Shown: positions 34,642 through 53,344 of the stretch, piece by piece
Layout of the letters: each line of letters opens with the position of its first letter
Position numbering within the stretch: position 1 is the first letter of the stretch
Assembly (NCBI GenBank): GCA_018241645.1
Contig: JAFEDL010000015.1
Coordinates: 14,264-67,800, forward strand
Source of the DNA: Pseudomonadota bacterium
Lineage (GTDB): Bacteria > Pseudomonadota > Gammaproteobacteria > Burkholderiales > SG8-39
Length of the DNA: 53,537 bases
Direction: 5' to 3'
Made by a program: the position numbers and the translations under genes
Notes under the pieces: generated by a model
What the model saw: only the letters and a program-made list of their open reading frames with translations
Told to the model about the DNA's origin: nothing
Database searches by the model: none

Positions 34642-34642
34642 C

Positions 34643-36967: not shown

Positions 36968-37925
36968 CCATCTCGCCGATGTGCTCCACGTCGTCGCGGA
37001 TCGTCGCCGCGGTTTCCGCCGGCGTGCTGGCGACGAGCTCCAGGCTGAGCGAGTCGATGTGCTTTTCCGTGAAGTCGGGGCGCTTCGCGACCGCGGTCAC
37101 GTCCTGGTAGATCCGCTCGACCAGCTTCGGGTCCGCGCCGCCCGGGGCGAACAGGCCGAACCAGATGATGGCCTTCGCGTAGGGAAACCCGCCTTCGGTC
37201 GCGGTCTGCACATCGGGGAAGCGCTTCGCGCGGTTCGGCCCGGTGATCGCTATGGCCCGCAGGCGGCCGCCCTTCACCATCGCGCCCGTCGCCGCGGGGC
37301 TGCCGATCGACAGCTGCACCTCCCCGGCGACCACGGCCTGGGTAGAGGGCGCGATGCCCTTGTAAGGCACGTGCAGGAACTGAAGGCCCTCGCGCCTGGC
37401 CATCGTCTCGAACACCAGCTGGGAGTGCGAGCCTACCCCGTAGGAACTGTAGGCGACCTTGCCGGGCGAGCGGCGCACGAGCTCCACCATTTCGCGCATC
37501 GTGTTCGCGGGGAACGAAGGGTGCACGATGATGAAGTTGCCGGAGCGCGCGACGATGGTGACCGGGGCGAGGCTCTTGTCCGGGTCGTAGGGCAGCTTCT
37601 TGAACAGGAACCGGTTGCCGACCACGGTCGGGTCGATGGTGAACAGCAGGGTGTGCCCGTCGGGCGCGGACGCGGCCACCCGTTCGGTGCCGATGATCGA
37701 ACTGGCGCCGCCGATGTTCTCCACCACCACGGGTTGCTTCCAGACCGGGCCGAGCTCGTTGGCCAGCGCCCGCGCAAGCACGTCGGTGCTGCCGCCGGCC
37801 GGGTAGGGCACGATGATGCGCACCGGCTTGGACGGGAAGGGCGCTTGCTGCGCCAGCGCCGGGGGCGAGGCGTGAAGCGCAAGCGCGGCAAGCAGCGCCG
37901 TGGCGGCGGTCCTGAAAACGTTCAT
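36939..37925 (-). CDS. TctC/Bug-type periplasmic substrate-binding protein
   Basis: A 328-residue Bug-family protein with a signal peptide (MNVFRTAATALLAALALHA, cleavage near ALAQ, residue 26). Family elements are FPSKPVRIIVPYPAGGSTDV, PVVVENIGGASSIIG, PYDPDKSLAPV and VPYKGIAPSTQAVVAGEV. It binds an organic anion in the periplasm; no TctA or TctB partner is encoded here. It is the only one of the five TctC-type genes on the minus strand. It lies 64 bases downstream of the NrfC-NrfD fusion start region's operon end (37990), with its own start at 37925, and is convergent with the LysR gene. Confidence 0.94.
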   Translation of the reverse strand: MNVFRTAATALLAALALHASPPALAQQAPFPSKPVRIIVPYPAGGSTDVLARALANELGPVWKQPVVVENIGGASSIIGTERVAASAPDGHTLLFTIDPTVVGNRFLFKKLPYDPDKSLAPVTIVARSGNFIIVHPSFPANTMREMVELVRRSPGKVAYSSYGVGSHSQLVFETMARREGLQFLHVPYKGIAPSTQAVVAGEVQLSIGSPAATGAMVKGGRLRAIAITGPNRAKRFPDVQTATEGGFPYAKAIIWFGLFAPGGADPKLVERIYQDVTAVAKRPDFTEKHIDSLSLELVASTPAETAATIRDDVEHIGEMVKAAGVQPE

Positions 37926-37989: not shown

Positions 37990-39633
37990 TCAGGGCAAGG
38001 CGAATCGCTCCGGCGCGGCCCGCTTGCCGGAGCCGCGCTGCGGCTGCATCGGGATGGCAAAGCCCTGCTGGTGGCAGGCCCGGGTGATCACGACGAATTT
38101 CCACAGCGCGCCGCCGATGACTGCGCCGGCGCCCGCCAGCGCGGCGAACGGCTGCGCGAGGGGGGCGACCGCGAGGCAGAGCAGGTACATCGTCAGCGGG
38201 ACGGCGTGCCCGGTCGCATGGATCCACGGCGAAGCCGCGGCGAGGTCCAGGCGCGCGAGTGGTCCGATGCCGGCCGCCTTTGCGCTGTCCACATAGCAGC
38301 GCCATGCCCAGGTATTGATGATCACGAGCAGCAATCCCGCCGGGGCGAGGACGATGACCGGCGCCACCTGCATGGTTGCGGAGAGGGAGAGGATGGCGAG
38401 GAGCCCGAGGCCTTCGGCGAGGCCGCTCGCGATCACCATGGCGGGGATCAGCGGCGCGCGCCACGCCGGGATTCCCTTGGACGCATAGAGGATGCGCGCC
38501 TGGCAGAGCAGGAACCCCGCCGCGGCCAGCGCCAGCAGGGCCAGGGCTTCGTGCAGGTACTGCGGCCACGCGTAGCTCACCGCCAGGGCCGGGTAGATCA
38601 CGGCCACGCACCAGGTTTCCCGCGTCATCCACGACGATTGCGGCCGCAGCAGCACGAACAGGAACCGGAGCTTGCGCCCGATCTTGAGGAACACGAAGAA
38701 CAGGCCCACCGCCATCACCGCCGCCGCGACGGCCGTGATCCTGCGCAGGCCTTCCGGCGCGAGCAGGCCCACCGCATGGGCGAACCATGCGGCGACCATC
38801 AGGCCCGAGGCCATGCCGCCGAGGATGAAGTTCATCGCCGCCCGGTAGTCCCAGAACGCCTGGCGCTTGCCCACCAGCGGGTTGGTCGGGTCCGACTGGC
38901 GCTCGTCCTCGAGGTCGTCCGGGTCGGCCGCGCGCCCCGGCGTCGACCGGGGCACCTCGTAGAGGTACTTGATCTGCGGGTCGTTGCCGAGCTCGGCGTG
39001 CATCTGGAACGAGCGGCTGTCTTTCGCAAGTATCGACACGGTGCTCGCCGGATCGGCGAAGTCGCCGAAGCGGATCGCCTGGGTGATGCACGAGGTCGCG
39101 CAGGCCGGCGTGACCTCGGGGTCCACGCCGGGCACGCGGCCGGTGACCGCGGCCGTGTCGATGCGCTCCACGCAGAACGTGCACTTGTTGGCCACGCCGT
39201 AGCGGTCCTCGTGGGTGGTCTTCTTTTCCTGCGCGGTCTGGCCGCCGGCGTAGTAGCCCTCTTTTTCGTGCACGATGGTGCGCGCCTGGTAGGGGCAGGC
39301 CACCGCGCACGAAGCGCAGCCGATGCACAGGTCGTAGTCCATCGTCACCAGGCCGTCGGCGCGCTGGCGCGTGGCGCCGGTCGGGCAGACCGGCACGCAG
39401 GAGGGCTCGGCGCAGTGCTGGCAGCCGGTCACGAGGAACAGGCGCTCCACGTCGGGAAAGCGTCCCTGCTCCACGTCCAGCACGCGGCGCCACTGCACAC
39501 CGGGCGGCGTGTCGTTGGAGTGCTTGCAGGCGATGGTGCAGGTCTGGCAGCCGACGCAGCGGTTGAGGTCCACGATCATGCCGTAGCGCTTGGCGGGCAT
39601 GGAGCCGTCGGGCTTGAGGTTGTTGAGGTTCAT
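37990..39633 (-). CDS. Fused NrfC-like 4x[4Fe-4S] protein and NrfD/DmsC-like membrane quinone module
   Basis: A 547-residue fusion. Residues about 15-200 are an NrfC/PhsB ferredoxin with four cluster motifs: CVGCQTCTIACKHS, CQHCAEPSCVPVCP, CIGCASCAVACP, and CTFC... joined with CATSC. After a polar linker (about 225-265) comes a membrane domain of some eight helices, from NFILGGMASGLMVAAWFAHA to GAGAVIGGALWKFVVI, of the NrfD/DmsC type that binds quinone. It would connect the molybdoenzyme encoded just upstream to the quinone pool. These two units are usually separate genes. The ATG (39631-39633) overlaps the molybdoenzyme stop by 4 bases. The ferredoxin part has no Tat signal, so it should face the cytoplasm. 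Confidence 0.88.
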   Translation of the reverse strand: MNLNNLKPDGSMPAKRYGMIVDLNRCVGCQTCTIACKHSNDTPPGVQWRRVLDVEQGRFPDVERLFLVTGCQHCAEPSCVPVCPTGATRQRADGLVTMDYDLCIGCASCAVACPYQARTIVHEKEGYYAGGQTAQEKKTTHEDRYGVANKCTFCVERIDTAAVTGRVPGVDPEVTPACATSCITQAIRFGDFADPASTVSILAKDSRSFQMHAELGNDPQIKYLYEVPRSTPGRAADPDDLEDERQSDPTNPLVGKRQAFWDYRAAMNFILGGMASGLMVAAWFAHAVGLLAPEGLRRITAVAAAVMAVGLFFVFLKIGRKLRFLFVLLRPQSSWMTRETWCVAVIYPALAVSYAWPQYLHEALALLALAAAGFLLCQARILYASKGIPAWRAPLIPAMVIASGLAEGLGLLAILSLSATMQVAPVIVLAPAGLLLVIINTWAWRCYVDSAKAAGIGPLARLDLAAASPWIHATGHAVPLTMYLLCLAVAPLAQPFAALAGAGAVIGGALWKFVVITRACHQQGFAIPMQPQRGSGKRAAPERFALP

Positions 39634-42374
39634 GCGCGCGCCTTTTTCACCGAGACGCGCATGATGTCCGCGCCGCTGCCGGTGGCGTCGGTCAGCGACA
39701 CGGCGAGGTCGGTGAGCGAGTTCAGGCTCGCCACGCCGAAATCCTTGGCCACGGGCGTGGCCCAGTGGTCGAACTGGCCGATCAGCAGCACGGTGTCGGG
39801 CCGGATGCCCTCGCGCAGCGTGGCGCGGCCGCGCGTGATGCCGCTGGCCGATTCGAGCACGATCGCGTCGCCGTCGGCAATGCCGAGCTTCTTCGCGGTG
39901 GCGCGGTTGATGATCACGCCGTCGTGGCCGGAGACGTTCTGCGCCACCTCGCGGATCAGCGGCAGTCCCACGTTGGCGCCCCACGCGTACTGCATGCTGC
40001 GCGAAGTCAGCGCCCAGAGCGGGAAATCCTTGGGGTCGCGCCCCAGTTCGGCGGCGTAGTTCTCCCAGATGTCCGGGAAGGCGAGATACCCGGGCAGCGC
40101 CTCGTACTCCTTCAGCTGCGGGTTCCACCACTCGATGCCGATTTCGTGCAGGCGCCGCTCGAGCTGCTCGCCGTGGCGCTTGATGCGCTCCTGGTAGGGC
40201 ATCTCGAACCGCAGGCCCTGTTCCTTCATGCGCGGGTACAGGTACCACTCCAGCTGCGAAAACGGCCGGATCATGAAGCCCTTCTCGCTGAACCAGTCGA
40301 TGCCGTGGATTTCGGTGCCGCCCGAGACCTCGTGGCTGGCGGCCTTCGCCACCGCGTCCCAGATCTCCTTGGCGCCGTGCGGCACTTCGGGATCCAGCGC
40401 GTAGTCGTAGCCCTCGCCGCGCAGCGCCATCGCCGCCGAGCCGCGGTTGATCGCCTCGTTGTATTTCTTCAGCAAGCCGGTGCGCCTGGCCAGTTCGGTG
40501 GAGATGTCGGTCATGTCCATGCAGTCGCCGGCAGGCTTGACCGCCGGCTGGCGCAGCGCCCAGCCCTGGTGGTGCCAGAACTGCTCGGCCGAGCCGGTGC
40601 CGCCGATGCGCGACATCTGCCAGCTTTCGAGGTCGGTCGCCTCCGGCAGGATCACGTCGGCCATCCAGTTCGATTCGTCCTGGGTGTAGCCGAACGCGAG
40701 CGTGAACGGGAACTCGGCGATGCGCTTGGCCACCTCGGGGGCGTTCCACGAAGAGATCGCCGGGTTGGTGCGGTAGCAGATCCACATGTCGGGCAGCGTC
40801 TGGCGCGGCCAGGGCTTGGGCGCCTTGTGCTGGAACAGCCACGGCAGGTGGGCGGGGCCCAGCGCCGCGGACCAGGGCGAGTTCGCCGCCAGCGGCACCA
40901 GCATCTTGTACGCGTTGCGGATGTGGGGCTTCGACTGCCACTCGTCCTTCTTCGTGGAATTGAACGGGTAGGTCATGAACCCGTCCTCGCCGTGCTTGGC
41001 GCTCTTCAGGCGGTTGTCCGCCGGGCGGTTCAGGCGCACCTTGGTGCCCATCGTGCCTCCGGGCACCTCCAGCGCGCCGACGAGGCACGCGAGCATCGTG
41101 CGACCCCACATGGCCTGGTAGCCGCCCCAGCCGTTGTTCACGCCCTTGCCGAGCATCACGCCCACGGGGCGGTGGGGCAGGGTCACGCCTTCGATCGTGA
41201 TCGTGGCGCCGATCTTCGCGTGCGCGACGAACTCGTCGGCCACGCGGCGGATGGTTTCGACCGGCACGTCGCACTCGGCCGCCGCCCACTCGGGCGTGTA
41301 CTGGCGGATGTGCTCGCGCATGAGCTCGAAGGACGGCTTGGCTTCGGCCTGCGCGTGCACCCAGCGTTCGCCGTCCGGGCCTTCCTCGTAGCCGGAGACC
41401 GTGTACGCGCCTTCCATGGCCGCATCCGCGATCGCGCCGTCGTAGGGCTTGGCCTTGGCGTCGGCGAGGTCCCAGATCAGGGGCTTGCCGCTCGCGCCGT
41501 CGCGCATGAAATAGCCGTGCGGGCCCACCAGGTAGGGCGAATTGGTGTCTTCCTGCAGGAACCTCACGTCGCAGACTTCGCGCCAGTTGCGCTCCAGCAC
41601 GATGCGGTGGATCAGCGCGTACATGAAGGCCGGGTCGGTCTTGGGCTTGATCGGCACCCATTCGCCCGACAGCGCGCCGGTCACCGACAGGTGCGGCTCG
41701 ACCTGCACGCGCTTCAGGCCGCGCGAGCGCGCGTCCGCCTGGCGCCAGACGCCCGAGACCCCGCCCGAGGCCTCGAGGTTGCTGCCGAAGTTGATGACGT
41801 AATCGCAGTTGAGCGAATCCGTGACCACCGTGAAGGCGCGGTGCCAGAACTCGCCGTAGAGGTGTTCCGAGTGGAAGCACTTCGCGCCCTGGCCGGAGCC
41901 GTAGCCCTGGTCGATCACGCCCCAGGCCGACAGGAAGGCCGGGAAGGTGCCCATGTAGCGGGTCGGCGTGCCGCCGCCGCCGAAGCTCGCGGCCAGGCGC
42001 GGATAGCCTTCCTCGTCGCGCATGCCCTTGGCCTGGATCTCGTTCAACTTGCCGGCCACGATGTCGAGCGCCTCGTCCCACGAGACCGGCACGAAGCCCG
42101 GGTCGTGCTCCTTGCCCTTCTTCGGGTTGGTGCGCTTGAGCGGCTGCGTGATCCGGTTCGGGTTGTAGGTTTTCTGTACCAGGCCGTAGGCCTTCACGCA
42201 GACGCGCCCGCCCGCGGGATGCACGCCCTCGAGGTCGAAGTTCGGCGTCATGCGCAGCGCCACGCCGTCCTTCACCTCGACCTTGAACAGGTCCGGGCCG
42301 CACACGCACTGGTTGCAGTACAGCGGCACCATCTTGCTGCCGGCCGCGGCGGTCCTGGGGGCGTCTGCGCTCAT
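39630..42374 (-). CDS. DMSO-reductase-family molybdopterin oxidoreductase (Tat-less, function unknown)
   Basis: A 914-residue bis-MGD enzyme. The N-terminus has cysteines at 20, 23, 25 and 59 (YCNQCVCGP and GRVCVKAYGL), the place of the [4Fe-4S] cluster, but the CxxCxC spacing differs from the usual CxxCxxxC. VSWDEALDIVAGKL (97-110) and NRITQPLKRTNP are standard for the family. Cys166 (GAKCFHSEH) is the likely Mo ligand. The C-terminal domain contains ALTSRSMQYAWGANVG and INRATAKKLGIADGDAIVLES. No twin-arginine signal is present, so the enzyme should stay in the cytoplasm. It resembles PhsA/ArrA-type enzymes in build, but I cannot assign a substrate. The neighbours are acyl-CoA genes. Confidence 0.87.
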   Translation of the reverse strand: MSADAPRTAAAGSKMVPLYCNQCVCGPDLFKVEVKDGVALRMTPNFDLEGVHPAGGRVCVKAYGLVQKTYNPNRITQPLKRTNPKKGKEHDPGFVPVSWDEALDIVAGKLNEIQAKGMRDEEGYPRLAASFGGGGTPTRYMGTFPAFLSAWGVIDQGYGSGQGAKCFHSEHLYGEFWHRAFTVVTDSLNCDYVINFGSNLEASGGVSGVWRQADARSRGLKRVQVEPHLSVTGALSGEWVPIKPKTDPAFMYALIHRIVLERNWREVCDVRFLQEDTNSPYLVGPHGYFMRDGASGKPLIWDLADAKAKPYDGAIADAAMEGAYTVSGYEEGPDGERWVHAQAEAKPSFELMREHIRQYTPEWAAAECDVPVETIRRVADEFVAHAKIGATITIEGVTLPHRPVGVMLGKGVNNGWGGYQAMWGRTMLACLVGALEVPGGTMGTKVRLNRPADNRLKSAKHGEDGFMTYPFNSTKKDEWQSKPHIRNAYKMLVPLAANSPWSAALGPAHLPWLFQHKAPKPWPRQTLPDMWICYRTNPAISSWNAPEVAKRIAEFPFTLAFGYTQDESNWMADVILPEATDLESWQMSRIGGTGSAEQFWHHQGWALRQPAVKPAGDCMDMTDISTELARRTGLLKKYNEAINRGSAAMALRGEGYDYALDPEVPHGAKEIWDAVAKAASHEVSGGTEIHGIDWFSEKGFMIRPFSQLEWYLYPRMKEQGLRFEMPYQERIKRHGEQLERRLHEIGIEWWNPQLKEYEALPGYLAFPDIWENYAAELGRDPKDFPLWALTSRSMQYAWGANVGLPLIREVAQNVSGHDGVIINRATAKKLGIADGDAIVLESASGITRGRATLREGIRPDTVLLIGQFDHWATPVAKDFGVASLNSLTDLAVSLTDATGSGADIMRVSVKKARA

Positions 42375-42395: not shown

Positions 42396-42809
42396 CTACT
42401 TGCCAAGCGCGGCGACCTTGGCGGCCTTGGCGTCGAGCCTTTCCTTCTGCTTGGCCAGGTCGACGATGAAGCGGGTGTGCTTGGCCTTGCCGACGAGGTC
42501 CAGCACGTCGCGCACCTCGACCTCGAAGTTCACGCGGCGGCCCTCGATCCCGGTGACCGTCGCGGTGACGTCCACCCACATGTCGCGCAGCGTCGGGCCG
42601 AGGTGGTCGATCTCCACGCGCGCGCCCACCGAGTTCTCCTCGGGGGAAAGGTACTCGCCAAGGAAGTCCTTGCAGGTGATCTCGACGTCGCGGACCATCA
42701 TCGGCGTGGCGTACACGCGCAGCGCCTCGCCCATGAATCCGATGGTGCGGTCGGTGTCGACCACCACGCGCACGGTTTTCTTCATGCCTGCCGTCAGTCC
42801 GGGTTTCAT
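42396..42809 (-). CDS. FlK-type hotdog acyl-CoA thioesterase
   Basis: A 137-residue single hotdog domain. The catalytic residues described for fluoroacetyl-CoA thioesterase FlK (Thr42, Glu50, His76) have counterparts with identical spacing: Thr35 (YATPMMV), Glu43 (DVEIT) and His69 (VEIDHLGPT). SVGARVEIDHLGPT and VNFEVEVRD match the family. It would hydrolyse a short acyl-CoA, perhaps to release CoA from a dead-end or toxic thioester. ATG at 42809 follows the ligase stop by 10 bases; the longer in-frame start is not supported by a ribosome site. A Lys/Ala-rich tail ends the protein. It lies 21 bases before the molybdoenzyme gene in the same operon. Confidence 0.87.
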   Translation of the reverse strand: MKPGLTAGMKKTVRVVVDTDRTIGFMGEALRVYATPMMVRDVEITCKDFLGEYLSPEENSVGARVEIDHLGPTLRDMWVDVTATVTGIEGRRVNFEVEVRDVLDLVGKAKHTRFIVDLAKQKERLDAKAAKVAALGK

Positions 42810-42819
42810 GCCGTCTCTC

Positions 42820-44352
<1,533 letters not shown>

Positions 44353-44476: not shown

Positions 44477-44541
44477 ATGATGATATTCGACGACTGGAGG
44501 AAGCAATGACGAACGGTTTCGGACATGAGGGATCACAATGA
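44477..44541 (+). other. Two stepped short leader ORFs before the thiolase-like gene
   Basis: Two tiny frames chain into the thiolase-like gene. The first, 44477-44509, encodes MMIFDDWRKQ. The second, 44506-44541, encodes MTNGFGHEGSQ and has a strong GGAGG ribosome site 5 bases upstream. Each stop overlaps the next start as ATGA, the second overlapping the thiolase ATG at 44538. This could be translational coupling or leader-peptide control. It may also be chance, since ATGA overlaps are frequent in this genome. Confidence 0.3.
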
Positions 44542-45710
44542 ATAAGCGCAAGGACATCGCCATCATCGGCTATGGCGAGACCAAGGTCACGCTGAAGGGC
44601 GGCCGCAGTTCGTACGACCTCGCGGGCGAGGTGTTCGCGCAGGTCGTCGAACAGACCGGCATCGACCCGAAGAAGATCGACGGCCTGTCGATCGCCGAGA
44701 CGATGAGCGAGACCTCTAACCCCTTCTGGGGCGTCTACATGTGCGAGATGCTGGGCCTGTCGCCGTCGTGGATGCAGCTCAACGGCCTGGGCGGCACCTC
44801 CGGCATCGGCGGCATCGCGCGCGCCGCCGCCGCGATCCGCGACGGCCTGTGCGAGACGGTGTTCGTGGTCGCGTCCGACGCGCAATCCTCCGGGCGCAAC
44901 CCCGAGCAGGGCGCGCAGCGCGGCGAATTCCAGTACCCGGTGGGCCTGCGCGGGCCGGTGGGCGCCTTCGGCCTGCTCACCCAGCGCTACCGCCACCAGT
45001 ACGGCCTGGACGACCGGGCGCTGGCCAAGCTCGCGGTCACCCAGCGCAACCACGCGCTGATGAACCCGAACGCGGTCGACAAGCTGCAGAAGCCGCTGAC
45101 GGAGGCCGACTACCTGAATTCCAAGTACGTGTCGGAGCCGTTGCGCATGCTCGACTCGGTCATGGTCTGCGACGGCGCCAACGGCGTGCTGGTGACCTCC
45201 ACCGAGAACGCGAAGAAGCTCGGCGCGAAGAAGATGATCCACCCGGTGGGCTACGGCGAGATCACCAACTTCAAGGGCGCCGAGCCGCTGGCCGACATCA
45301 CGGTGTCGGGCTTCTCGGTGGCCGGGCCGCGCGCGCTCAAGCGGGCCGGCATGACGCCGAAGGACATCCGCATGATCATGCCGTACGACGATTTCCTCAT
45401 TGCCCTCATCATCACGCTCGAGGACATCGGCTTCTGCCCCAAGGGCAAGGGCTGCGAGTTCGTCATGAACACCGACCTCTCCTACAAGGGCACGCTGCCG
45501 CTGAACACCTCGGGCGGCCAGATCTCCGCGGGCCAGCCCGGCCTCGCCGGCGGCGGCCTCAACCTGGTCGAGGGCGTGCGCCAGATGTTCGGCGAAGCCG
45601 GCGCCCGGCAGGTCTCCGACCCGCGCAACTGCATGGTGACCGGCATCGGTGTCATCCCCTACGGACGCAACTGGGGCGTCTCCGGCGTCCTCGTCATGGA
45701 GCAATCATGA
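44538..45710 (+). CDS. Thiolase-fold lipid-transfer-like protein lacking thiolase catalytic residues
   Basis: A 390-residue thiolase-superfamily protein (SCP-x / Ltp2-like). The fold is clear from IAIIGYGETKV, VFVVASDAQSSGRNP, RNHALMNPNA and the C-terminal GGQISAGQPGLAGGGL. The nucleophilic Cys position reads NGLGGTSGIGG (82-92), with no cysteine, and the catalytic-His motif GHPLGATG is replaced by AGQPGLAGG (331-339). It therefore cannot work as a normal thiolase. Relatives paired with a DUF35 protein, as here (45707, ATGA overlap), act as retro-aldolases on hydroxyacyl-CoA thioesters. That role is the best guess. Confidence 0.88.
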   Translation: MNKRKDIAIIGYGETKVTLKGGRSSYDLAGEVFAQVVEQTGIDPKKIDGLSIAETMSETSNPFWGVYMCEMLGLSPSWMQLNGLGGTSGIGGIARAAAAIRDGLCETVFVVASDAQSSGRNPEQGAQRGEFQYPVGLRGPVGAFGLLTQRYRHQYGLDDRALAKLAVTQRNHALMNPNAVDKLQKPLTEADYLNSKYVSEPLRMLDSVMVCDGANGVLVTSTENAKKLGAKKMIHPVGYGEITNFKGAEPLADITVSGFSVAGPRALKRAGMTPKDIRMIMPYDDFLIALIITLEDIGFCPKGKGCEFVMNTDLSYKGTLPLNTSGGQISAGQPGLAGGGLNLVEGVRQMFGEAGARQVSDPRNCMVTGIGVIPYGRNWGVSGVLVMEQS

Positions 45711-46153
45711 GCGAACAAGCAAAAGCACCCGCCAAGCCCGAGGTGAAGAAGATCCCGCGGCCCATGCCGCGCCCGAACACCTACATGGACACCAAGCCGT
45801 TCTGGGAGGCTGCGAAGAACGGCAAGCTGGTCATCCAGTACTGCAAGGACACCGGCAAGCCGCAGTTCTTCCCGCGCCCGGTCAGCATGGCCAACGGCAA
45901 GCGCAACCTCGAGTGGCGCGAAGTCTCGGGCCGCGGCACGGTATACAGCTTCACCAACACGTTCAGCGCCTGGCCGGGGCACGAGGACCGAGTGCCGTAC
46001 ATGGTCGCGCTGGTCGAGCTCGAGGAGGGCGTGCGGATCCTGTGCAACCTCTTCAACGTGAAGGCCGAGGACGTCAAGATCGGCATGCCGGTCAAGCTGT
46101 ACTGGGAGAAGCTGTCGGAAGACATCAACTACCCGGCCTTCCAGCCGGCCTGA
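45707..46153 (+). CDS. DUF35 OB-fold protein, partner of the thiolase-like enzyme
   Basis: A 148-residue DUF35 protein with an N-terminal helix (TYMDTKPFWEAAKNGKLVIQYC), a stretch where the zinc ribbon normally lies (CKDTGKPQFFPRPVS) and a C-terminal OB-fold acyl-CoA-binding domain (SGRGTVYSFTNTFS and VPYMVALVELEEGVRIL). The zinc ribbon of DUF35 proteins needs four cysteines. Only one remains in that region, so the ribbon is degenerate and probably does not bind zinc. DUF35 proteins stabilise or complete the active site of thiolase-like aldolases, and the ATGA overlap with the thiolase-like gene supports a complex. It is followed 10 bases later by an acyl-CoA ligase. Confidence 0.9.
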   Translation: MSEQAKAPAKPEVKKIPRPMPRPNTYMDTKPFWEAAKNGKLVIQYCKDTGKPQFFPRPVSMANGKRNLEWREVSGRGTVYSFTNTFSAWPGHEDRVPYMVALVELEEGVRILCNLFNVKAEDVKIGMPVKLYWEKLSEDINYPAFQPA

Positions 46154-46163
46154 ACCCCGGCGC

Positions 46164-47690
46164 GTGAAACTCGCCGCCTTCCTCGCGGCCCACGCCCTGG
46201 CGACGCCGGGGCGCGAGGCCGTCGCGTGCGGAAACGTGCGCCTCAGCTTCGGCGAGGTGGACGCGCAGTCGACGCGGCTGGCCAACGGCCTCGTGGCGCG
46301 CGGCATCGCGATCGGCGACCGGGTGGCGATTGCGCTGGCCAACCGCGCCGAGTTCGTGGTGGCCTTCATGGGCGTGGTGAAGGCCGGCGCGATCGCGATC
46401 ACGCTGAACCCGCGGCTTTCCGCGCCCGAGGTGGCCTACATCCTCGGCGACGCCGCGCCCGGCGCGCTGGTCCTCGAGGACGAAACGCGCGCGCTGCTGC
46501 TGAAGTCGGGCCGCCTGCCCGGCCTGCGACTGTGCGTGGATGCGCCCGCCGCGGGGGAGCTGTCGTTCGCGGCGCTGATCCGCGACAGCGGCACCGCGCT
46601 GCCGGACATCCCGCCCGAGTTCGACGACTGCATGATCTCCTACACCTCGGGCACCACCGGCAAGCCCAAGGGCGCGATCATCACGCAGGCCAACTACATC
46701 ATGCTGGCGGCGTACCTGAACGGCCTGCAGTGGAACCTCACCACCGCCGACCGCATCCTCGCCACCACCCCGCTCGCGCACCGCTCGGCGTTCCAGCGCC
46801 TCCTGAACATGGTGTGCGCGGGCGCGAGCCTGGTGGTGATGCCGCGCTTCGACGCGAAGGAGGCCGCGCGCATCATCGAGGCCGAGGGCATCACGCTGAT
46901 GGGCATGGTGCCGACCGTGGGGCGCATGCTGCTGCCGGAGATCGAGGCGGCGCCGGAGCGCTTTCGCACGCTGCGGGCCGCCGTGGTGACCGGCGAGGCC
47001 TTCCCGGTGGAGGTGAAGCAGCGGCTGCTCGCCGCGCTGCCGAAGCTCGAGCTGCATTCCTTCTTCGCGATGACCGAGGTCGGCGCCATCACCAACCTCG
47101 GGCCGTCCGAGCAGTTCGCCAAGGGATCCTCGGTCGGGCGCGTGAGCCCCGGCGTTGAGCTCAAGCTCGTCGACGACACGGGCGCGAGCGTCCCGGCCGG
47201 CGAAACCGGCGAGATCCTCGTGCGCACCGGGCCGCCCGGCAGCTTCCTCACCATGCGCGGCTACTACAACAACCCGCACGCCACGGCCGAGGCGATCGAG
47301 AACGGCTGGGTGAAGACCGGGGACCTCGGGCGCTTCGACGCGGACGGCTACCTGTACATCGTCGACCGCAAGAAGGACATGGTGCTGTCCGGCGGCTACA
47401 ACATCTATTCCAAGGAGGTCGAGGCCGCGATCCTCGCCATTCCCGGCGTGCACGACGTGGCCGTGGTGGGCGTGCCCGACCCGGTCTACGGCGAAGCCGT
47501 GGCGGCGTTCGTCGAGCTGCACCCGGGCGCATCGGTCGCGGCAGAGCAGGTCGTCGAGCACTGCCGCGAGAGCATCGCCAGCTACAAGAAGCCCCGCCAC
47601 GTGCGGTTCGTGCAGGCCCTGCCGCGCAACAGCACCGGCAAGGTGCTGAAGTACGAGTTGCGGCAATCCTTCGCCGCGGGCGGGAGCTGA
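46164..47690 (+). CDS. AMP-forming acyl-CoA synthetase (paralogue A)
   Basis: A 508-residue ANL ligase. Motifs: MISYTSGTTGKPKGAIITQ (P-loop), HSFFAMTEVGAITNLG (A5), WVKTGDLGRFDADGYLYIVD and RKKDMVLSGGYNIYSKEVE (A7-A8), and the catalytic lysine in NSTGKVLKYELR (A10). The start is GTG at 46164, 10 bases after the DUF35 stop. MKLAAFLAAHALATPGREAV is a typical opening and is shared with paralogue B at 49885. The two enzymes are clearly related along their whole length, including 53-base segments with one mismatch. It probably activates the acid that the acyl-CoA dehydrogenase next door oxidises; the acid is unknown. Confidence 0.94.
   Translation: MKLAAFLAAHALATPGREAVACGNVRLSFGEVDAQSTRLANGLVARGIAIGDRVAIALANRAEFVVAFMGVVKAGAIAITLNPRLSAPEVAYILGDAAPGALVLEDETRALLLKSGRLPGLRLCVDAPAAGELSFAALIRDSGTALPDIPPEFDDCMISYTSGTTGKPKGAIITQANYIMLAAYLNGLQWNLTTADRILATTPLAHRSAFQRLLNMVCAGASLVVMPRFDAKEAARIIEAEGITLMGMVPTVGRMLLPEIEAAPERFRTLRAAVVTGEAFPVEVKQRLLAALPKLELHSFFAMTEVGAITNLGPSEQFAKGSSVGRVSPGVELKLVDDTGASVPAGETGEILVRTGPPGSFLTMRGYYNNPHATAEAIENGWVKTGDLGRFDADGYLYIVDRKKDMVLSGGYNIYSKEVEAAILAIPGVHDVAVVGVPDPVYGEAVAAFVELHPGASVAAEQVVEHCRESIASYKKPRHVRFVQALPRNSTGKVLKYELRQSFAAGGS
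46641..46693 (+). repeat. 53-base repeat shared by the two ligase paralogues (copy in A)
   Basis: This segment encodes the ATP-binding loop and matches 50368-50420 at 52 of 53 bases. A second pair of the same size, 47364-47416 and 51091-51143, also matches at 52 of 53, with the same 3727-base offset. The likeness shows a local gene duplication. Confidence 0.8.
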
Positions 47691-47691
47691 G

Positions 47692-48885
47692 GTGGACCTC
47701 AATTACTCCCCGGAGGAATGCGCGTTCCGCGACGAGGTGCGCGGCTGGCTCGACGCTAACCTGCCCGCGGACCTCAAGGAGCGGGTGGCGAATTTCGCGG
47801 TGCTGACCAAGGAAGAGACGCAGCGCTGGCACGGCATCCTGTCGAAGAAGGGCTGGGTGGCCCCGGCGTGGCCGGTGGAGTGGGGCGGCACCGGCTGGAA
47901 CGTCGTGCAGCGCTACATCTTCGAGGAGGAATGCGGCTACGCCGGCGCGCCGCAGCTGCCCGCGCTTTCGCTGATGATGTGCGCGCCGGTCCTGATCCGC
48001 TACGGCACCGAGGCGCAGAAGAAGCGTTTCCTGCCGCGCATCCACGACGGCAGCGAATCCTGGTGCCAGGGCTATTCCGAGCCCGGCGCCGGGTCCGACC
48101 TTTCGGCGCTCAAGACCCGCGCCGAAAGGGACGGCGACCATTACGTGGTCACCGGCCAGAAGACCTGGACCACGCACGCGCAGTGGGCCGACTGGATGTT
48201 CTGCCTCGTGCGCACCGGCAGCGACAGCCCCAAGCAGCAGGAAGGCATCTCGTTCCTGCTGGTCGACATGAAGTCGCCCGGCATCACCATCCGGCCGCTG
48301 ATCCTGATGGACGGCAGCCACGAGGTGAACGAGGTGTTCTTCGACCGCGTGCGCGTGCCGGCCGGGAACCTCGTCCACGAGGAAGGCAAGGGCTGGACGG
48401 TGGCCAAGTACCTGCTCGGCTACGAGCGGATGAACCAGGGCCGTATCGGCATCGCCAAGCGCACCCTCGCCAAGCTCAAGGACTACGCGCGGGAGGCCGT
48501 GAAGGACGGCAAGCCGCTCATGGATGACGTGCGGTTCCGCGACCGGCTGGCGCGCGTCGAGGTGGAACTCATGGCGCTCGAGCTGACGAACCTGCGCATG
48601 CTCGACCAGATGCGGCGCAGCGGCCGCCCGCCCGGGGCCGAGGTGTCGATCCTGAAGATCCGCGGCACCGAGATCCACCAGGCGCTGTCCGAGCTCTTCG
48701 TCCAGGCCGCGGGCCCGTTCGCGCAGCCGCTCGCGCCGCTCGCGGCAGGCGACGAGTTCGACGCGTTCCAGGACTTCGCCGCGGCCCTGATGCCGAAGTT
48801 CCTGAACCTGCGCAAAATGACGATTTACGGCGGTTCGAACGAAATCCAGCGCAATATCATTGCCAAGATGATCCTGGGTCTATGA
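47692..48885 (+). CDS. Acyl-CoA dehydrogenase
   Basis: A 397-residue FAD acyl-CoA dehydrogenase. The N-terminal helical domain (YSPEECAFRDEVRGWLDANL) resembles PimC/PimD-type enzymes. The middle domain carries GYSEPGAGSDLSALKTRAE and the FAD/substrate contact TGQKTWTTHAQWADW. The C-terminal helices end with the FAD-binding MTIYGGSNEIQRNIIAKMIL. It oxidises an acyl-CoA to the 2-enoyl-CoA and passes electrons to ETF. The start is GTG 47692, 1 base after the ligase stop. An operon with ligase A, the aldolase-like pair and a TctC protein suggests a beta-oxidation-like route: activation, dehydrogenation, then retro-aldol cleavage after a hydration step not encoded here. Confidence 0.94.
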   Translation: MDLNYSPEECAFRDEVRGWLDANLPADLKERVANFAVLTKEETQRWHGILSKKGWVAPAWPVEWGGTGWNVVQRYIFEEECGYAGAPQLPALSLMMCAPVLIRYGTEAQKKRFLPRIHDGSESWCQGYSEPGAGSDLSALKTRAERDGDHYVVTGQKTWTTHAQWADWMFCLVRTGSDSPKQQEGISFLLVDMKSPGITIRPLILMDGSHEVNEVFFDRVRVPAGNLVHEEGKGWTVAKYLLGYERMNQGRIGIAKRTLAKLKDYAREAVKDGKPLMDDVRFRDRLARVEVELMALELTNLRMLDQMRRSGRPPGAEVSILKIRGTEIHQALSELFVQAAGPFAQPLAPLAAGDEFDAFQDFAAALMPKFLNLRKMTIYGGSNEIQRNIIAKMILGL

Positions 48886-48914: not shown

Positions 48915-49877
48915 ATGCGTATCAAGGCGTTGCTCGTGGCGGTCCTGCTCGTGGTGTCCGGCGCGGCCCAGGCCCAGGCCTGGCCTACCCGGCCGGTGAA
49001 GATCATCGTGCCCTATCCCCCGGGCGGCGTGACCGACATGTTCTCGCGCGTGCTCGCCGCGCAGCTGCAGGAGTCCTTCGGCCAGCCGTTCCTGGTCGAG
49101 AACAAGCCCGGCGCCAGCCAGATGGTCGGCGCGGTGTACGTCGCCAAGGCGCCGCCGGACGGATACACCCTGTACGTGGGCAGTACCACCAGCCTAGGGA
49201 TGAACGCCTACACGCAGAAGAATATCCAGTACGACCCGGTGAAGGACTTCGCGCCGGTGTCGCTCGCGATGACCATGCCGATGTTCCTGGTGGTGAACCC
49301 CTCCGTCCCGGCCACCAACGTCAGGGAGCTGGTCGCGGTGCTGAAGGCCAACCCGGGCAAGTACAGCTATGCCACCACCGGCAACGGCAGCTCGACGCAC
49401 ATGGCCGGCGAGCTGTTCAAGAAGATGACCGGTACCGAGATGACCGCGATTCCCTACAAGGGCTCGGGGCCGGGCATCGCCGACCTCATCGCGGGGCAGG
49501 TCCAGCTCTCCATCGACCCGGGCGCGTCCTCGCTGCCTTCGGTGAAGTCCGGCAAGCTCCGCGCCCTCGCGGTCACCGGCAAGAAGCGCTTCTCGCTGAT
49601 GCCCGACCTGCCCACGATCGACGAGGCCGGCGTGCCGGGCTACGAATCGGTGATCTGGTTCGGCATCGTGGCCACGGCGGGCACCCCGCCGGCGGTCACC
49701 GCGAAGCTCTCGCACGAGATCGGCCGGATCCTCAGGCTGCCCGCCAACGTGGAAAAGTTCGGCGCGTTCGCCATCGACCTCACGCCCACCACGCCGGAGG
49801 AATTCGGCGCGCTGATCAAGGCCGACGTGGCGAAGTGGGCCAAGGAGCTGGGCGAAGCGGGCATCAAGCCGGAGTAG
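48915..49877 (+). CDS. TctC/Bug-type periplasmic substrate-binding protein
   Basis: A 320-residue Bug-family protein with a signal peptide (MRIKALLVAVLLVVSGAAQ, cleavage after AQA near residue 21). It is followed by WPTRPVKIIVPYPPGGVTDM, FLVENKPGASQMVG, YDPVKDFAPVSLAMT and IPYKGSGPGIADLIAGQV. AAGGAGA, 7 bases before the ATG, is a good ribosome site. It sits between the acyl-CoA dehydrogenase and the second acyl-CoA ligase, so it probably captures the acid that these enzymes activate. No membrane TctA or TctB subunit is present. Confidence 0.95.
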   Translation: MRIKALLVAVLLVVSGAAQAQAWPTRPVKIIVPYPPGGVTDMFSRVLAAQLQESFGQPFLVENKPGASQMVGAVYVAKAPPDGYTLYVGSTTSLGMNAYTQKNIQYDPVKDFAPVSLAMTMPMFLVVNPSVPATNVRELVAVLKANPGKYSYATTGNGSSTHMAGELFKKMTGTEMTAIPYKGSGPGIADLIAGQVQLSIDPGASSLPSVKSGKLRALAVTGKKRFSLMPDLPTIDEAGVPGYESVIWFGIVATAGTPPAVTAKLSHEIGRILRLPANVEKFGAFAIDLTPTTPEEFGALIKADVAKWAKELGEAGIKPE

Positions 49878-49884
49878 CCAGCGC

Positions 49885-51426
49885 ATGAAGTTCGCCTCCT
49901 TCCTCGCCACCCATGCCCGCAACACGCCGGACAAGGACGCGGTCATCTGCGGCGCGGAGCGCCTGACCTTCCGCGAGCTCGACGAGTCTACGAACCGCCT
50001 CGCGAACGCGCTGCGCGACCGGGGCGTGGCGGTGGGCGACCGGGTGGCGATCCAGCTGCACAACACGGTGGAGTTCGTGCGCGCGTTCATGGCGGCCACC
50101 AAGGCGGGCGCCATCTCGGTGCCGGTCAACACGCGCCTCGCGCCGGGCGAGATCGCCTACATCCTCGCCGACTGCGCGCCGAAAGCGGTGTTCTTCTCCG
50201 ACGAGACCCGCGAAATACTCGACAAGGCCGCGGCGGGCGCGAAGGACCTGCTGCGCATCGTCGCGGGCGCGCCGCGCGCAGGCGAGTTCACCGTAGCGCA
50301 GCTGATCGCGGAGGGCGCGCCCGGCACGCCGGCGGTGCCGCCCGAGTTCGACGACAGCATGATCGTCTACACCTCGGGCACCACCGGCAAGCCCAAGGGC
50401 GCGATCCTCACGCAGGCCAATTCGATCATCCCGAACGGCTACCTCAACATGGTGCAGTACGGGGTGTCGCAGGCCGACCGCCAGCTGGTCACCACGCCGC
50501 TGGCGCACCGCACGGGCTTCGCGCGGATGGCCAACATGCTGCTGCACGGGTCCACGCTGGTGGTGATGCCGCGGTTCGACCCGGCGCAGGCCGCGGCGCT
50601 GGTGCGCGGCGAGCGCATCACCGTGATCGGCATCGTGCCCACCGTGGGACGCATGCTGCTGCCCGAGATCGAGGCGCGCCCGGAGGATTTCGCCAGCGTG
50701 AACGTGATGCTGGTGACCGGCGAGGCCTTCCCGCTCGAGGTCAAGCAGCGCATCCACAAGGCGCTGCCGCGCGTGCGGATGTACTCGTTCTTCGCGATGA
50801 CCGAGGTCGGCGGGCTCACGCTGCTCGGCCCGGAGGAGCAGTTCACCCATCCGACCTCCCTGGGACGGCTGAACCCCGGCGCGGAAGTGCGCCTCGTCGA
50901 CGCCTCGGGCAAGGACGTGGCCCCGGGCGAGGTCGGCGAGATGTGGGTGCGCACCGGCGAGCCGGGGCGCTACCTGACGATGCGCTGCTACTTCAACAAG
51001 CCCAAGGAGACCGCCGAGACCATCCGCGACGGCTGGGTAGCCACCGGGGACATGGCGAGGATGGAGGCCGACGGCCACCTCTACATCATGGACCGCAAGA
51101 AGGACATGGTGCTGTCGGGCGGCTACAACATCTATTCCAAGGAAGTGGAGCTGGCGCTGCAGGCGCACCCCGCCGTGCAGGACGCCGCCGTGATCGGCGT
51201 GCCGGACCCGGTGTTCGGCGAGGCGGTGGCCGCGTTCATCGAGCTGCGGCCCGGCGAGCGGGCCAGCGAAGCCGAAATCATCGCGCACTGCCGCGACCGC
51301 ATCGCGGGCTACAAGAAACCCAAGTTCGTGCGTTTCCTTTCGCCGCTGCCGCGCAACAGCACGGGCAAGGTGCAGAAGTTCGAGCTGCGCAAGGCATTCG
51401 CGGGACAACAGGGAGAGGCGCAATGA
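49885..51426 (+). CDS. AMP-forming acyl-CoA synthetase (paralogue B)
   Basis: A 513-residue ANL ligase related throughout to the gene at 46164. Motifs: MIVYTSGTTGKPKGAILTQ, MYSFFAMTEVGGLTLLG, WVATGDMARMEADGHLYIMD and RKKDMVLSGGYNIYSKEVE, and the A10 lysine in NSTGKVQKFELR. ATG at 49885 follows the TctC stop by 7 bases. Differences in the central acyl-binding part (for example QYGVSQADRQLVTTPLAHRTGFARM in place of the paralogue's stretch, residues about 190-215) suggest a different acid substrate. Its stop overlaps the next TctC start (ATGA). Confidence 0.94.
   Translation: MKFASFLATHARNTPDKDAVICGAERLTFRELDESTNRLANALRDRGVAVGDRVAIQLHNTVEFVRAFMAATKAGAISVPVNTRLAPGEIAYILADCAPKAVFFSDETREILDKAAAGAKDLLRIVAGAPRAGEFTVAQLIAEGAPGTPAVPPEFDDSMIVYTSGTTGKPKGAILTQANSIIPNGYLNMVQYGVSQADRQLVTTPLAHRTGFARMANMLLHGSTLVVMPRFDPAQAAALVRGERITVIGIVPTVGRMLLPEIEARPEDFASVNVMLVTGEAFPLEVKQRIHKALPRVRMYSFFAMTEVGGLTLLGPEEQFTHPTSLGRLNPGAEVRLVDASGKDVAPGEVGEMWVRTGEPGRYLTMRCYFNKPKETAETIRDGWVATGDMARMEADGHLYIMDRKKDMVLSGGYNIYSKEVELALQAHPAVQDAAVIGVPDPVFGEAVAAFIELRPGERASEAEIIAHCRDRIAGYKKPKFVRFLSPLPRNSTGKVQKFELRKAFAGQQGEAQ
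50368..50420 (+). repeat. 53-base repeat shared by the two ligase paralogues (copy in B)
   Basis: The partner of 46641-46693 with one mismatch. The same offset links 51091-51143 to 47364-47416. Confidence 0.8.
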
Positions 51427-52388
51427 AGATCGCCCCCGGGCTGGCAGTACTCGCGTTCATGTTCGCGGCCGCGGGGGCAGTCGCGCAGCCGTACCCGTCC
51501 AAGCCGATCCGCATCGTCGCGCCCTTCCCGCCGGGCGGCAGCGCCGATTTCACGGCCCGGGTCATCGCCGAGCACTTCGGCAAGGCCTTCGGCCACCCCG
51601 CGGTGGTGGAGAACGTGCCGGGCGTGGGCGGCGTGATCGCCGCGGAGCGGAACGCCAAGGCTGCGCCGGACGGCTATTCGCTCATCATCGGCTCGACCGG
51701 GATCATGGCGGTCAACGCCAGCCTGCTGAAGAACATTGCCTACGACCCGGCGAAGGACTTCACCCCGGTGTCGCTCGTGATCCGCGTGCCGAGCTACCTC
51801 GTGATCAACCCCAGGGTGCCGGCGAAATCGGTGCAGGAGCTGATCGACTACGCGCGCGCCAACCCGGGCAGGCTCACCTACGCCTCGGCCGGCAACGGCA
51901 CCTCGCAACACACCAATCCGGAACTCTTCAAGAGCATGGCGAAGGTGTTCATCCTGCCGATCACCTACCGCGGCAGTTCGCCGGCGATGGCGGCCCTGAT
52001 GAGCGGCGAGGTGGACATGATGATCGAGCTGGGGCCCACCGCGATCCCGCAGATCAAGGCCGGCCGCATCAAGGCGCTGGGCGCCTCCACCGCCGAGCGC
52101 ACCCGCGCGATGCCCGAGGTGCCGACGATCGCCGAGTCCGGACTGCCCGGGTTCGACGCGTACACCTGGTTCGGCGTGGCCGGCCCGCCCGGCTTGCCAA
52201 GGGATATCGTTGCGAGGCTGCACGCCGAGATCGTCAAGGCGGTGGCGCCGCCCGAGGTGCGCGCGCGGCTCGAGGCCGTCGGCGCCGAGGTCGTCGCCGG
52301 CACGCCGGAAGAATTTGCGGAGTTCCAGAAGAAGGAGGCGGTGAAATGGGCCAAGGTAGTGAAGGACGCGGGAATCAAGCCGGAATGA
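51423..52388 (+). CDS. TctC/Bug-type periplasmic substrate-binding protein
   Basis: A 321-residue Bug-family protein with a signal peptide (MKIAPGLAVLAFMFAAAGA, cleavage after AVA near residue 21). It is followed by YPSKPIRIVAPFPPGGSADF, AVVENVPGVGGVIAAE, YDPAKDFTPVSLVIRV and ITYRGSSPAMAALMSGEV. The tyrosine-arginine in place of the common PYKG hinge may reflect a different ligand. ATG at 51423 overlaps the ligase B stop. The purine-rich GGGAGAGG upstream is its ribosome site. The stop overlaps the next TctC start (ATGA at 52385), so ligase B and both TctC proteins are made together. Confidence 0.95.
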   Translation: MKIAPGLAVLAFMFAAAGAVAQPYPSKPIRIVAPFPPGGSADFTARVIAEHFGKAFGHPAVVENVPGVGGVIAAERNAKAAPDGYSLIIGSTGIMAVNASLLKNIAYDPAKDFTPVSLVIRVPSYLVINPRVPAKSVQELIDYARANPGRLTYASAGNGTSQHTNPELFKSMAKVFILPITYRGSSPAMAALMSGEVDMMIELGPTAIPQIKAGRIKALGASTAERTRAMPEVPTIAESGLPGFDAYTWFGVAGPPGLPRDIVARLHAEIVKAVAPPEVRARLEAVGAEVVAGTPEEFAEFQKKEAVKWAKVVKDAGIKPE

Positions 52389-53344
52389 GCCTGCGCGCGG
52401 GCCTGTTTGCGCTGCTCGCCGCAGTAGCGCTGGGCGCATCGGCGCAGGAGTACCCGGTGAAGCCGGTCAAGGTGATCATGTTCTACGCGCCGGGCGGGCC
52501 GACGGATTTCATCTCCCGCGCGGTGAGCGAGAAGCTGTCGCAGCGGCTCGGGCAGCCCTTCGTGGTCGACTCCAAGCCCGGGGCGAACCTGCGCATCGGC
52601 TCCGAGTTCGTGGCCAAGTCCGCGCCCGACGGCTACACGATCGGCGTGACCGGCGTGCCGCACGCCACCAACCCGGCGCTGTTCCCGAACATGCCGTACG
52701 ACACGCTCAGGGACCTCGCGGGCCTCGCGCACCTGGTGGACGCGCCGCTCGCGCTGTCGGTGCCGGCCGCCTCCCCGGTCAGGAGCGTGGCCGACCTGAT
52801 CGCGCTGGCCAAGGCGAAGCCCGGCGAGGTCACGATCGGCACGGCCGGCAACGGCACCGGCCCGCACCTGGCGATGGAGTTCCTGTTCCTCGTCGCGGGG
52901 GCGAACTACACGCACGTGCCCTACAAGGGCGACGCGCCGGCGGTGGTCGAGCTGCTCGGCGGACGGATCGCGGCCGGCAGCAACACGCTGCAGGCGGTGC
53001 TGCAGCACATCAAGGCCGGGCGCCTGCGCGGGCTGGCGGTAGCGGCGAAGGAGCGCGTCGCCGCCGCGCCCGACATCCCCACGCTGGCCGAGCTCGGCTA
53101 CCCGGACGTGGTGGTGAACACCTGGTTCGGCATGGTGATCCCTTCCGGCGTGCCGAAGGACATCGTCGCCAAGCTCAGCCGCGAGATCAACGCGGTGCTG
53201 GCCCTGCCCGACGTGCGCGAGAAGGTCTTCGCCACCGGCCTCGTGCCGGTCGGCGGCACCCCCGCCGAGTTCGACGCCCACATCAAGCGCGAGATGGAGC
53301 GCTGGGCCCGGGTGATCAAGGCGCGGGGCATCAAGGCCGAGTAG
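52385..53344 (+). CDS. TctC/Bug-type periplasmic substrate-binding protein
   Basis: A 319-residue Bug-family protein with a short signal peptide (MSLRAGLFALLAAVALGAS, cleavage after SAQ near residue 21). It is followed by YPVKPVKVIMFYAPGGPTDF, FVVDSKPGANLRIGSE, PYDTLRDLAGLAHLV and VPYKGDAPAVVELLGGRI. It is not a close copy of the preceding TctC gene, so the pair should recognise different ligands or arose long ago. It ends the ligase B operon, followed by a 78-base gap before the lldD-like gene. Confidence 0.95.
   Translation: MSLRAGLFALLAAVALGASAQEYPVKPVKVIMFYAPGGPTDFISRAVSEKLSQRLGQPFVVDSKPGANLRIGSEFVAKSAPDGYTIGVTGVPHATNPALFPNMPYDTLRDLAGLAHLVDAPLALSVPAASPVRSVADLIALAKAKPGEVTIGTAGNGTGPHLAMEFLFLVAGANYTHVPYKGDAPAVVELLGGRIAAGSNTLQAVLQHIKAGRLRGLAVAAKERVAAAPDIPTLAELGYPDVVVNTWFGMVIPSGVPKDIVAKLSREINAVLALPDVREKVFATGLVPVGGTPAEFDAHIKREMERWARVIKARGIKAE

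Follow-up and report, generated by a model that had tools for sequence, protein, structure and literature searches.

A thiolase-fold/DUF35 gene pair with a conserved YDDF motif and a degenerate zinc ribbon: a candidate Sal-like acyl-coenzyme A retro-aldolase in Burkholderiales

The DNA analysed here, referred to as the window, is a 53,537-nucleotide stretch of contig JAFEDL010000015.1 (assembly GCA_018241645.1, positions 14,264 to 67,800 of the forward strand) from a Burkholderiales bacterium of the SG8-39 lineage. It carries two genes, overlapping by an ATGA at 45707-45710, that encode a thiolase-like protein of 390 residues and a small DUF35 protein. A sequence-only reading had described the former as a thiolase-fold protein without catalytic Cys and His residues, and the latter as a partner retaining a single cysteine of its zinc ribbon. 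Both reading frames and their coordinates were borne out (Table 1), and the GGTSGIGG and AGQPGLAGG motifs of the thiolase-like protein were located at residues 85-92 and 331-339, respectively. Alignment to the thiolase 7YVY confirmed the loss of both catalytic residues, placing Gly86 in the nucleophile column and Gln333 in that of the GHP His; the second acid/base Cys of a thiolase (HDCF type) is replaced by Asp285. In the DUF35 protein Cys46 alone occupies a zinc-ligand position, the others being Thr49, Ser60 and Asn63, and the only further cysteine of the protein is Cys113.

Searches of family models placed the thiolase-like protein with Pfam Thiolase_C_1 (131 bits), with Thiolase_N under its cut-off at 21 bits. 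Its top NCBIfam model was PRK06158, named 'acetyl-CoA acetyltransferase' (CoA, coenzyme A), at 263 bits against a cut-off of 421, and among the matches listed (the best 25 of 27 models) none reached its NCBIfam cut-off. The DUF35 protein scored above cut-off with both OB_ChsH2_C (81.7 bits) and zf-ChsH2 (33.3 bits, spanning 27 of the 37 model positions). An AlphaFold2 model of the thiolase-like chain (predicted local distance difference test score, pLDDT, 90.8; predicted template modelling score 0.92) has the thiolase fold along its whole length, and the best 50 Protein Data Bank (PDB) entries matching it are all of this fold, with Z scores from 52.4 to 38.2. The best of them is chain A of 9MYR, the aldolase CtSal (Z 52.4, 378 residues, root mean square deviation 2.4, 32% identity), a match between a model and a structure that supports kinship with Sal. 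The model of the DUF35 partner is confident throughout, ribbon included (mean pLDDT 90.1), and its best match, chain B of 9MYR (Z 18.4), is tied with chain B of 6OK1 (Z 18.0). Together with the Pfam matches, this identifies the rubredoxin-like ribbon and OB fold of the DUF35/ChsH2 type in the window partner.

Ranked by sequence score, the closest solved relatives of the thiolase-like protein are CtSal (9MYR, 196 bits), 4U4E (170), TcLtp2 (6OK1, 146) and the thiolase 7YVY (123). CtSal is the bile-acid side-chain aldolase of Comamonas testosteroni; according to the available part of PMC12329534, Tyr302 is its base and Cys304 its acid, and Gln347 and Gln352 may stabilise the thiolate. In the alignment of CtSal with the window protein, 12 of the 12 CtSal residues checked agree in letter and number with the available text of that paper. 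Tyr302, Asp303, Gln347, Gln352 and Gly89 of CtSal are kept as Tyr283, Asp284, Gln328, Gln333 and Gly86, while Y305 and Y165 correspond to F286 and F144; these two changes lowered the kcat of CtSal by just 7.6- and 4.5-fold (PMC12329534, available part). Judged from the alignment, the catalytic core of Sal is retained, yet its essential Cys is an Asp and one of its oxyanion residues is a Pro. The CtSal-CtShy(DUF35) complex resembles the window pair in its thiolase fold and DUF35 subunit, its Tyr base, its two Gln residues, the Gly at the nucleophile site and the GGQ...GQ motif. It differs in having Cys304 and Gln161 in place of Asp285 and Pro140, and in a DUF35 domain that holds a Cys3His1 (C3H1) zinc site and is fused to a MaoC hydratase, whereas the DUF35 protein of the window stands alone and lacks such a site.

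Relatives were next collected by a scan of a genome collection covering 84,980 species, which gave 249 encoded relatives, the best 80 of which were kept as 79 loci. Together with plasmid and genome matches, sequences at least 47.5% identical to the window protein define a clade of 91 members, the window's own included and near-identical sequences kept in the counts. Gly85, Gly86, Phe144, Tyr283, Asp284, Asp285, Phe286, Gln328, Gly332 and Gln333 are invariant, and every member has YDDF and GGQ...GQ; since the same residues recur in 91 of 91 sequences, the loss of Cys and His is not the drift of a single sequence. One of the two patterns used in the collection scan contains YDDF, so the scan leans towards this motif. 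YDDF was also present, however, in the 5 of the 81 scan sequences that do not have the full pattern and in the 10 sequences obtained by other routes. In similarity-only searches it was found in eight relatives examined at 77-95% identity and in four at 48-49%, while relatives at 32-39% identity had YDDY, YDAF, YDSF or YDCF. An alternative catalytic cysteine was also sought in the clade sequences, and none is invariant: Cys105, Cys211 and Cys300 are missing in 3, 2 and 2 of the 91. Position 87, adjoining the nucleophile site, is Cys in 55; the remaining 36 have Ala, Thr, Gly, Val or Ser there, the window having Thr. Given the variation at position 87 and the lack of any invariant Cys, the idea of a true thiolase whose Cys has been displaced was set aside.

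Clade members from the collection scan include sequences of Variovorax boronicumulans and Bradyrhizobium elkanii. The gene is scattered: in 369 genomes sampled from the class, among them G000, nothing beyond G000 matched at E <= 1e-100. No relative was found in viral contigs, and no characterised clade member was present among the matches listed in literature searches of open-licence papers. A 73% identical clade member (L052) lies in a record titled Streptomyces sp. MMG1533, among loci with mostly Proteobacteria titles, which points to transfer or contamination. A second, 90% identical copy (L042:6348-7517) occurs in a genome that also carries locus L039.

The changes in the DUF35 partner are equally a property of the clade. 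None of the 88 paired clade partners has Cys at position 49, 60 or 63, whereas residue 46 is Cys in 75 of them and Asp in the other 13. Position 49 is occupied by Thr (51), Ala (20), Ser (12), Asn (3) or Val (2), position 60 by Ser (86), Asn (1) or Gly (1), and position 63 by Thr (67), Asn (9), Ser (9) or Asp (3); two partners, L056 and L096, have a second ribbon Cys elsewhere. Because the ribbon stretch has its usual length in all but L015, the zinc-ligand cysteines have been replaced and not deleted. Three clade members were not paired automatically: L052 has a like partner when inspected by eye, L051 stops at a contig end, and the third is L042, considered below. Among 17 partners paired outside the clade, 13 show Cys at all four positions, the exceptions being the partners of IpfD, of L027 and L031 (both YDAF) and of L050 (YDNF); among three further outside partners, L026 has four Cys and L020 and L021 have none. 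The loss of zinc ligands is therefore fixed in the clade yet not unique to it. The L050 pair (thiolase-fold gene at L050:16834-18075), with YDNF and no ribbon Cys in its partner, is apparently a separate case of zinc-ligand loss.

A tree of 64 rows was built after removal of the trait columns, with 35 of the 91 clade members represented alongside 29 other sequences; L003, an exceptionally long row, was omitted, and CtSal is represented by one partial sequence on a long branch. Support for the YDDF clade was 99/99, for the YDDF and YDDY rows together 99/97, and for a grouping of these with CtSal apart from the Ltp2, IpfD, 4U4E-type and thiolase rows 92/91. In an approximately unbiased (AU) test, for which the groups were named after the tree had been inspected, union with the Ltp2/IpfD group was not rejected (p 0.275) and union with the 4U4E group was weakly rejected (p 0.030). 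Placement nearest to Sal thus rests on scores and motifs, together with a tree branch of moderate support.

The sequence-only reading had called the pair Ltp2-type. The Ltp2 label is less apt, because Tyr344 and the YDHF His of Ltp2 are absent and because sequence score, motifs and the best fold match all favour Sal first. Comparison with the Ltp2 catalytic pair Tyr294/Tyr344 recovered the first Tyr but not the second, with GQ standing for AY and Asp for the YDHF His. The steroid aldolase TcLtp2-ChsH2(DUF35) (6OK1) accordingly shares with the window pair its fold, a DUF35 partner and the first Tyr of YDxF, whereas Tyr344, the YDHF His and the C4 zinc ribbon of its partner are all missing from the window pair. 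Ltp2 membership had been considered first and was set aside on motifs and scores, though the AU test leaves a closer tie to Ltp2 possible (p 0.275). The closest characterised enzyme is CtSal (9MYR), not clearly Ltp2.

Three other systems bear on the comparison. IpfD-IpfE, of ibuprofen degradation on plasmid pIBU218 (NZ_CP059320), is likewise a thiolase-fold/DUF35 pair beside an AMP ligase gene and has the YDxF Tyr; its zinc site is degenerate, IpfE lacking Cys at all four positions. IpfD is unlike the window protein in its YDAF motif, its FY at the Ltp2-type position, its 30% identity and its directly adjoining ring-hydroxylating dioxygenase genes. IpfDE has been placed in print at a step named retro-aldolase cleavage, though another passage of that paper has 'thiolase'. 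With IpfE lacking the four Cys, partners of this kind are found in more than one branch and can go along with a retro-aldolase-type step. Plasmid pIBU218 also carries a second, Ltp2-like pair apart from ipfDE (L038:939-2503), with YDHF, AYIHG and a four-Cys partner. The benzoylsuccinyl-CoA thiolase BbsAB (7PXP, 7PYT) combines a thiolase fold with a DUF35 subunit, as the window pair does (Z 47.9 and 48.3), but is named a thiolase, and the BbsB and BbsA NCBIfam models match the window proteins far below cut-off (91 of 750 and 28 of 250 bits).

The third system is found on plasmid pJP4, where a 49% identical pair of the same clade lies directly after tfdA and an acyl-CoA synthetase gene. It has YDDF and GGQ...GQ, and its partner is of the same zinc-less type, with no Cys at three of the four zinc positions. 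Unlike the window pair it adjoins tfdA and a VanA-type Rieske oxygenase gene, and it has Cys at position 87. A single 4-kb block with tfdA, the acyl-CoA synthetase, the thiolase-like and the DUF35 genes was found in 5 of 72,556 plasmid records. On account of its position next to tfdA, the COG183 gene of pJP4 was predicted in 2019 to encode a β-ketoadipyl-CoA thiolase, and COG1545 was left unassigned (PMC6449761). The residue losses of the pJP4 pair argue against β-ketoadipyl-CoA thiolysis.

Table 1. Features of the thiolase-fold/DUF35 pair and its surroundings, in window coordinates
Feature	Position	Strand	Basis or remark
Thiolase-fold protein, 390 aa, proposed acyl-CoA retro-aldolase subunit	44538..45710	+	Open reading frame; Pfam Thiolase_C_1, 131 bits; AlphaFold2 model
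GGTSGIGG loop, residues 85-92, Gly86 at the thiolase nucleophilic Cys site	44790..44813	+	Alignments
Y283-D284-D285-F286, proposed base Tyr283 and acid Asp285 (CtSal Y302-D303-C304-Y305)	45384..45395	+	CtSal alignment
Q328...Q333 (QISAGQ), equivalent to CtSal Gln347 and Gln352; Gln333 at the thiolase His site	45519..45536	+	CtSal alignment
DUF35 (ChsH2-type OB-fold) partner, 148 aa	45707..46153	+	Open reading frame; Pfam; AlphaFold2 model
Degenerate zinc ribbon, residues 42-68: C46, T49, S60, N63 instead of four Cys	45830..45910	+	Alignments
AMP-forming acyl-CoA ligase, next gene downstream	46164..47690	+	Pfam AMP-binding
Acyl-CoA dehydrogenase, PimC-like below model cut-off	47692..48885	+	Pfam, NCBIfam
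Second AMP-forming acyl-CoA ligase downstream	49885..51426	+	Pfam
Divergent AMP-forming acyl-CoA ligase	42820..44352	-	Pfam
FlK-type acyl-CoA thioesterase (fluoroacetyl-CoA thioesterase family, 104 bits), between oxidoreductase and divergent ligase	42396..42851	-	Pfam
Molybdopterin oxidoreductase, divergent gene group	39630..42374	-	Pfam; 12 of 60 clade loci, the window among them, have a homologue within 8 kb
4Fe-4S protein, judged by eye to be hydrophobic in its C-terminal half; probable partner of the molybdopterin oxidoreductase	37990..39633	-	
TctC-type solute-binding protein genes, interspersed in the cluster	36939-37925, 48915-49877, 52346-53344	-, +, +	

Gene context was counted within 8 kb of the pair in 60 clade loci having at least 6 kb on either side (the window being exempt), against a neighbour library built from annotated plasmid loci and the window only, to which other families are invisible. 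AMP ligase genes were present in 48 of the 60 loci, acyl-CoA dehydrogenase genes in 35 and enoyl-CoA hydratase genes in 38, in 28 of them directly upstream. Genes for NitT-type ATP-binding cassette transporters (28/60), TctC proteins (19/60), UbiD (14/60), Rieske alpha subunits (7/60) and TfdA (3/60) were also counted, and 12 loci had none of hydratase, molybdopterin oxidoreductase, Rieske or TfdA genes nearby. A Pfam scan covered 123 of 300 crudely called open reading frames, hand-chosen for nearness, with L039, L040, L043, L058 (the nearest to the window), L062 and L063 left out. It gave AMP-binding (28), acyl-CoA dehydrogenase (24), hydratase (20), UbiD (10), short-chain dehydrogenase/reductase (SDR; 5), thiamine pyrophosphate (TPP) enzyme (5) and CoA transferase (3) families. 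The 3-hydroxyacyl-CoA dehydrogenase family is outside the 25 commonest, the last of which has two members, and so accounts for at most 2 of these 123 neighbours; it had no match among the 18 window proteins scanned. Such scarcity is as expected if the hydroxyl is cleaved and not oxidised. Genes for activating, dehydrogenating and hydrating the substrate, with the hydroxyl left unoxidised, are the set that retro-aldol cleavage would call for.

Two UbiD proteins encoded close to the pair score above the cut-off of the UbiD family and match the model for the hydroxyarylic acid decarboxylase VdcC below its cut-off; these neighbours are a hint of aromatic substrates. A TPP-dependent enzyme of the PRK08327 family (L068:9913-11604; 667 bits, above cut-off) follows UbiD near one pair. 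The molybdopterin oxidoreductase of the window is ~67% identical to that at L070:6890-9586 (- strand) of a marine alphaproteobacterial metagenome-assembled genome; a PadB-like role for it would be a guess, PDB and NCBIfam searches having given no PadB reference. Rieske alpha genes near 7 of the 60 loci prompted consideration of an ibuprofen-type route, by ring dioxygenation and deacylation, for the whole clade. This was not adopted, because the Rieske pair of the window (34141-35893, AndAc-like below model cut-off) lies at a distance of ~9 kb and pJP4 has a VanA-type Rieske protein.

The residue losses, their fixation in the clade, the predicted fold, the gene pairing and the gene context are shown by the analysis. 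As a reading of these, we favour with modest confidence a CoA-thioester retro-aldolase derived from SCP2-type thiolases, in which the pair would supply the two subunits, a Sal-like Tyr/Asp variant and a zinc-free DUF35 partner. By homology with Sal/Shy-DUF35 and Ltp2/ChsH2-DUF35, the complex would be a thiolase-fold dimer flanked by two DUF35 chains. Its substrate would be a β-hydroxyacyl-CoA, perhaps of an aryl-substituted acid, which in many relatives would be made by CoA ligase, acyl-CoA dehydrogenases and enoyl-CoA hydratase. Tyr283 would take the proton of the β-hydroxyl, and the bond between the α and β carbons would break to give an aldehyde or ketone together with the enolate of an acyl-CoA. 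Asp285, kept in place by Gln328 and Gln333, would reprotonate the enolate in the role of CtSal Cys304. Neither a thiol nucleophile nor a second CoA would be required. The DUF35 chain would keep its ribbon and OB fold without the metal, with Thr, Ser and Asn at the Cys sites, and would cap the substrate cleft. The sequence-only reading had suggested a carbon-carbon lyase with a non-standard partner; this is the best-supported reading, although the partner is not odd for its own clade, zinc-ligand loss being the rule there and IpfE being alike.

Several observations weigh against this proposal. The essential CtSal acid Cys304 aligns with Asp285, and according to the available part of PMC12329534 activity was undetectable in the C304A, C304S and C304H variants, Asp not being among the substitutions made. 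Other CtSal residues also differ, namely Q161 of the oxyanion hole (P140), G391 (V372), R216 (K196) and T355 (L336). The fold matches that follow CtSal are the thiolase 7YVY (Z 49.3), TbSLP (49.0), other thiolases, BbsB (48.3) and Ltp2 (47.2), so that the remainder of the list fails to separate aldolase from thiolase, and union with the Ltp2/IpfD group was not rejected in the AU test. At L042 a ligase gene directly follows the thiolase-like gene, with no DUF35 gene between. As to context, no hydratase gene adjoins the pair in the window, unlike in 38 of the 60 loci; the genome has 36 hydratase matches, some being fragments of a single frame, and encodes 3-hydroxyacyl-CoA dehydrogenases elsewhere. 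Hydroxyacyl-CoA dehydrogenases could also be encoded by the SDR genes found near 20 of the 60 loci, and aldehyde dehydrogenase, expected for an aldehyde product, is found at only 16 of the 60 loci and in 2 of the 123 scanned reading frames.

The strongest competitor, a less probable one, is a different CoA-thioester lyase or hydrolase in which Asp285 would activate water or deprotonate the α carbon, leading to hydrolytic retro-Claisen cleavage, decarboxylation or dehydration. The Asp is unmatched in the compared sites of assigned role (YDCY in CtSal, YDHF in Ltp2 and YDAF in IpfD), the oxyanion Gln161 has become Pro140, and the contexts vary between hydratase, molybdopterin oxidoreductase, Rieske and TfdA genes, all of which would suit such a change of chemistry. 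That the base Tyr of CtSal, its two Gln and its Gly are all retained argues in the other direction, as does the finding that CtSal showed no decarboxylation of malonyl-CoA (PMC12329534).

An ordinary thiolase, cleaving a 3-ketoacyl-CoA with CoA by means of another nucleophile, is improbable. Such a function has been predicted in print for the pJP4 member (PMC6449761, available part) and agrees with the fold, with the second place of 7YVY in the fold list and with the Cys87 of 55 of the 91 clade members, pJP4 included. Against it stand the replacement of the nucleophile Cys by Gly, the catalytic His by Gln and the XDCX Cys by Asp in all 91, the 36 sequences without Cys at position 87, and the near absence of 3-hydroxyacyl-CoA dehydrogenase among the scanned neighbours. 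Moreover, CtSal, which has the same Gly, is called incapable of thiolysis by its authors (PMC12329534, available part).

A non-catalytic acyl-CoA carrier or scaffold is more doubtful still: some NCBIfam models matched below cut-off bear the name 'lipid-transfer protein', but 91 of 91 sequences share the same Tyr, Asp and Gln at the former active site. Least probable is work in the synthetic direction, as an aldolase joining an aldehyde such as glyoxylate, which is the product of TfdA and would be supplied by it in the pJP4 group, to an acyl-CoA; the 4-kb tfdA block agrees with this, but most relatives lie amid transporter, dehydrogenase and hydratase genes without tfdA.

If the retro-aldolase assignment is correct, the clade may represent a third catalytic solution among thiolase-fold, DUF35-assisted carbon-carbon lyases, in which a Tyr/Asp pair held by two Gln would be tied to the loss of zinc from the partner. 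It is conceivable, though only tentatively put forward, that such a unit serves as an interchangeable cleavage module behind several β-hydroxyl-making routes (hydratase, molybdopterin oxidoreductase, and Rieske or TfdA-type oxygenase), and that on tfdA plasmids it carries out a step that has been misassigned. Clade members in the plasmid records examined are mostly annotated as 'thiolase family protein', and this annotation, with the β-ketoadipyl-CoA thiolase prediction for pJP4, means that pathway reconstructions may hold a wrong step, possibly affecting tfdA plasmids and catabolic operons in Burkholderiales, Bradyrhizobium relatives and Rhodospirillaceae. CtSal has no detectable activity with Ala, Ser or His at position 304 while the whole clade has Asp there, so the clade offers a direct test of what that position requires. 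It also provides a set of DUF35 partners in which zinc seems dispensable, and which would be useful for probing the role of zinc in Sal and Ltp2.

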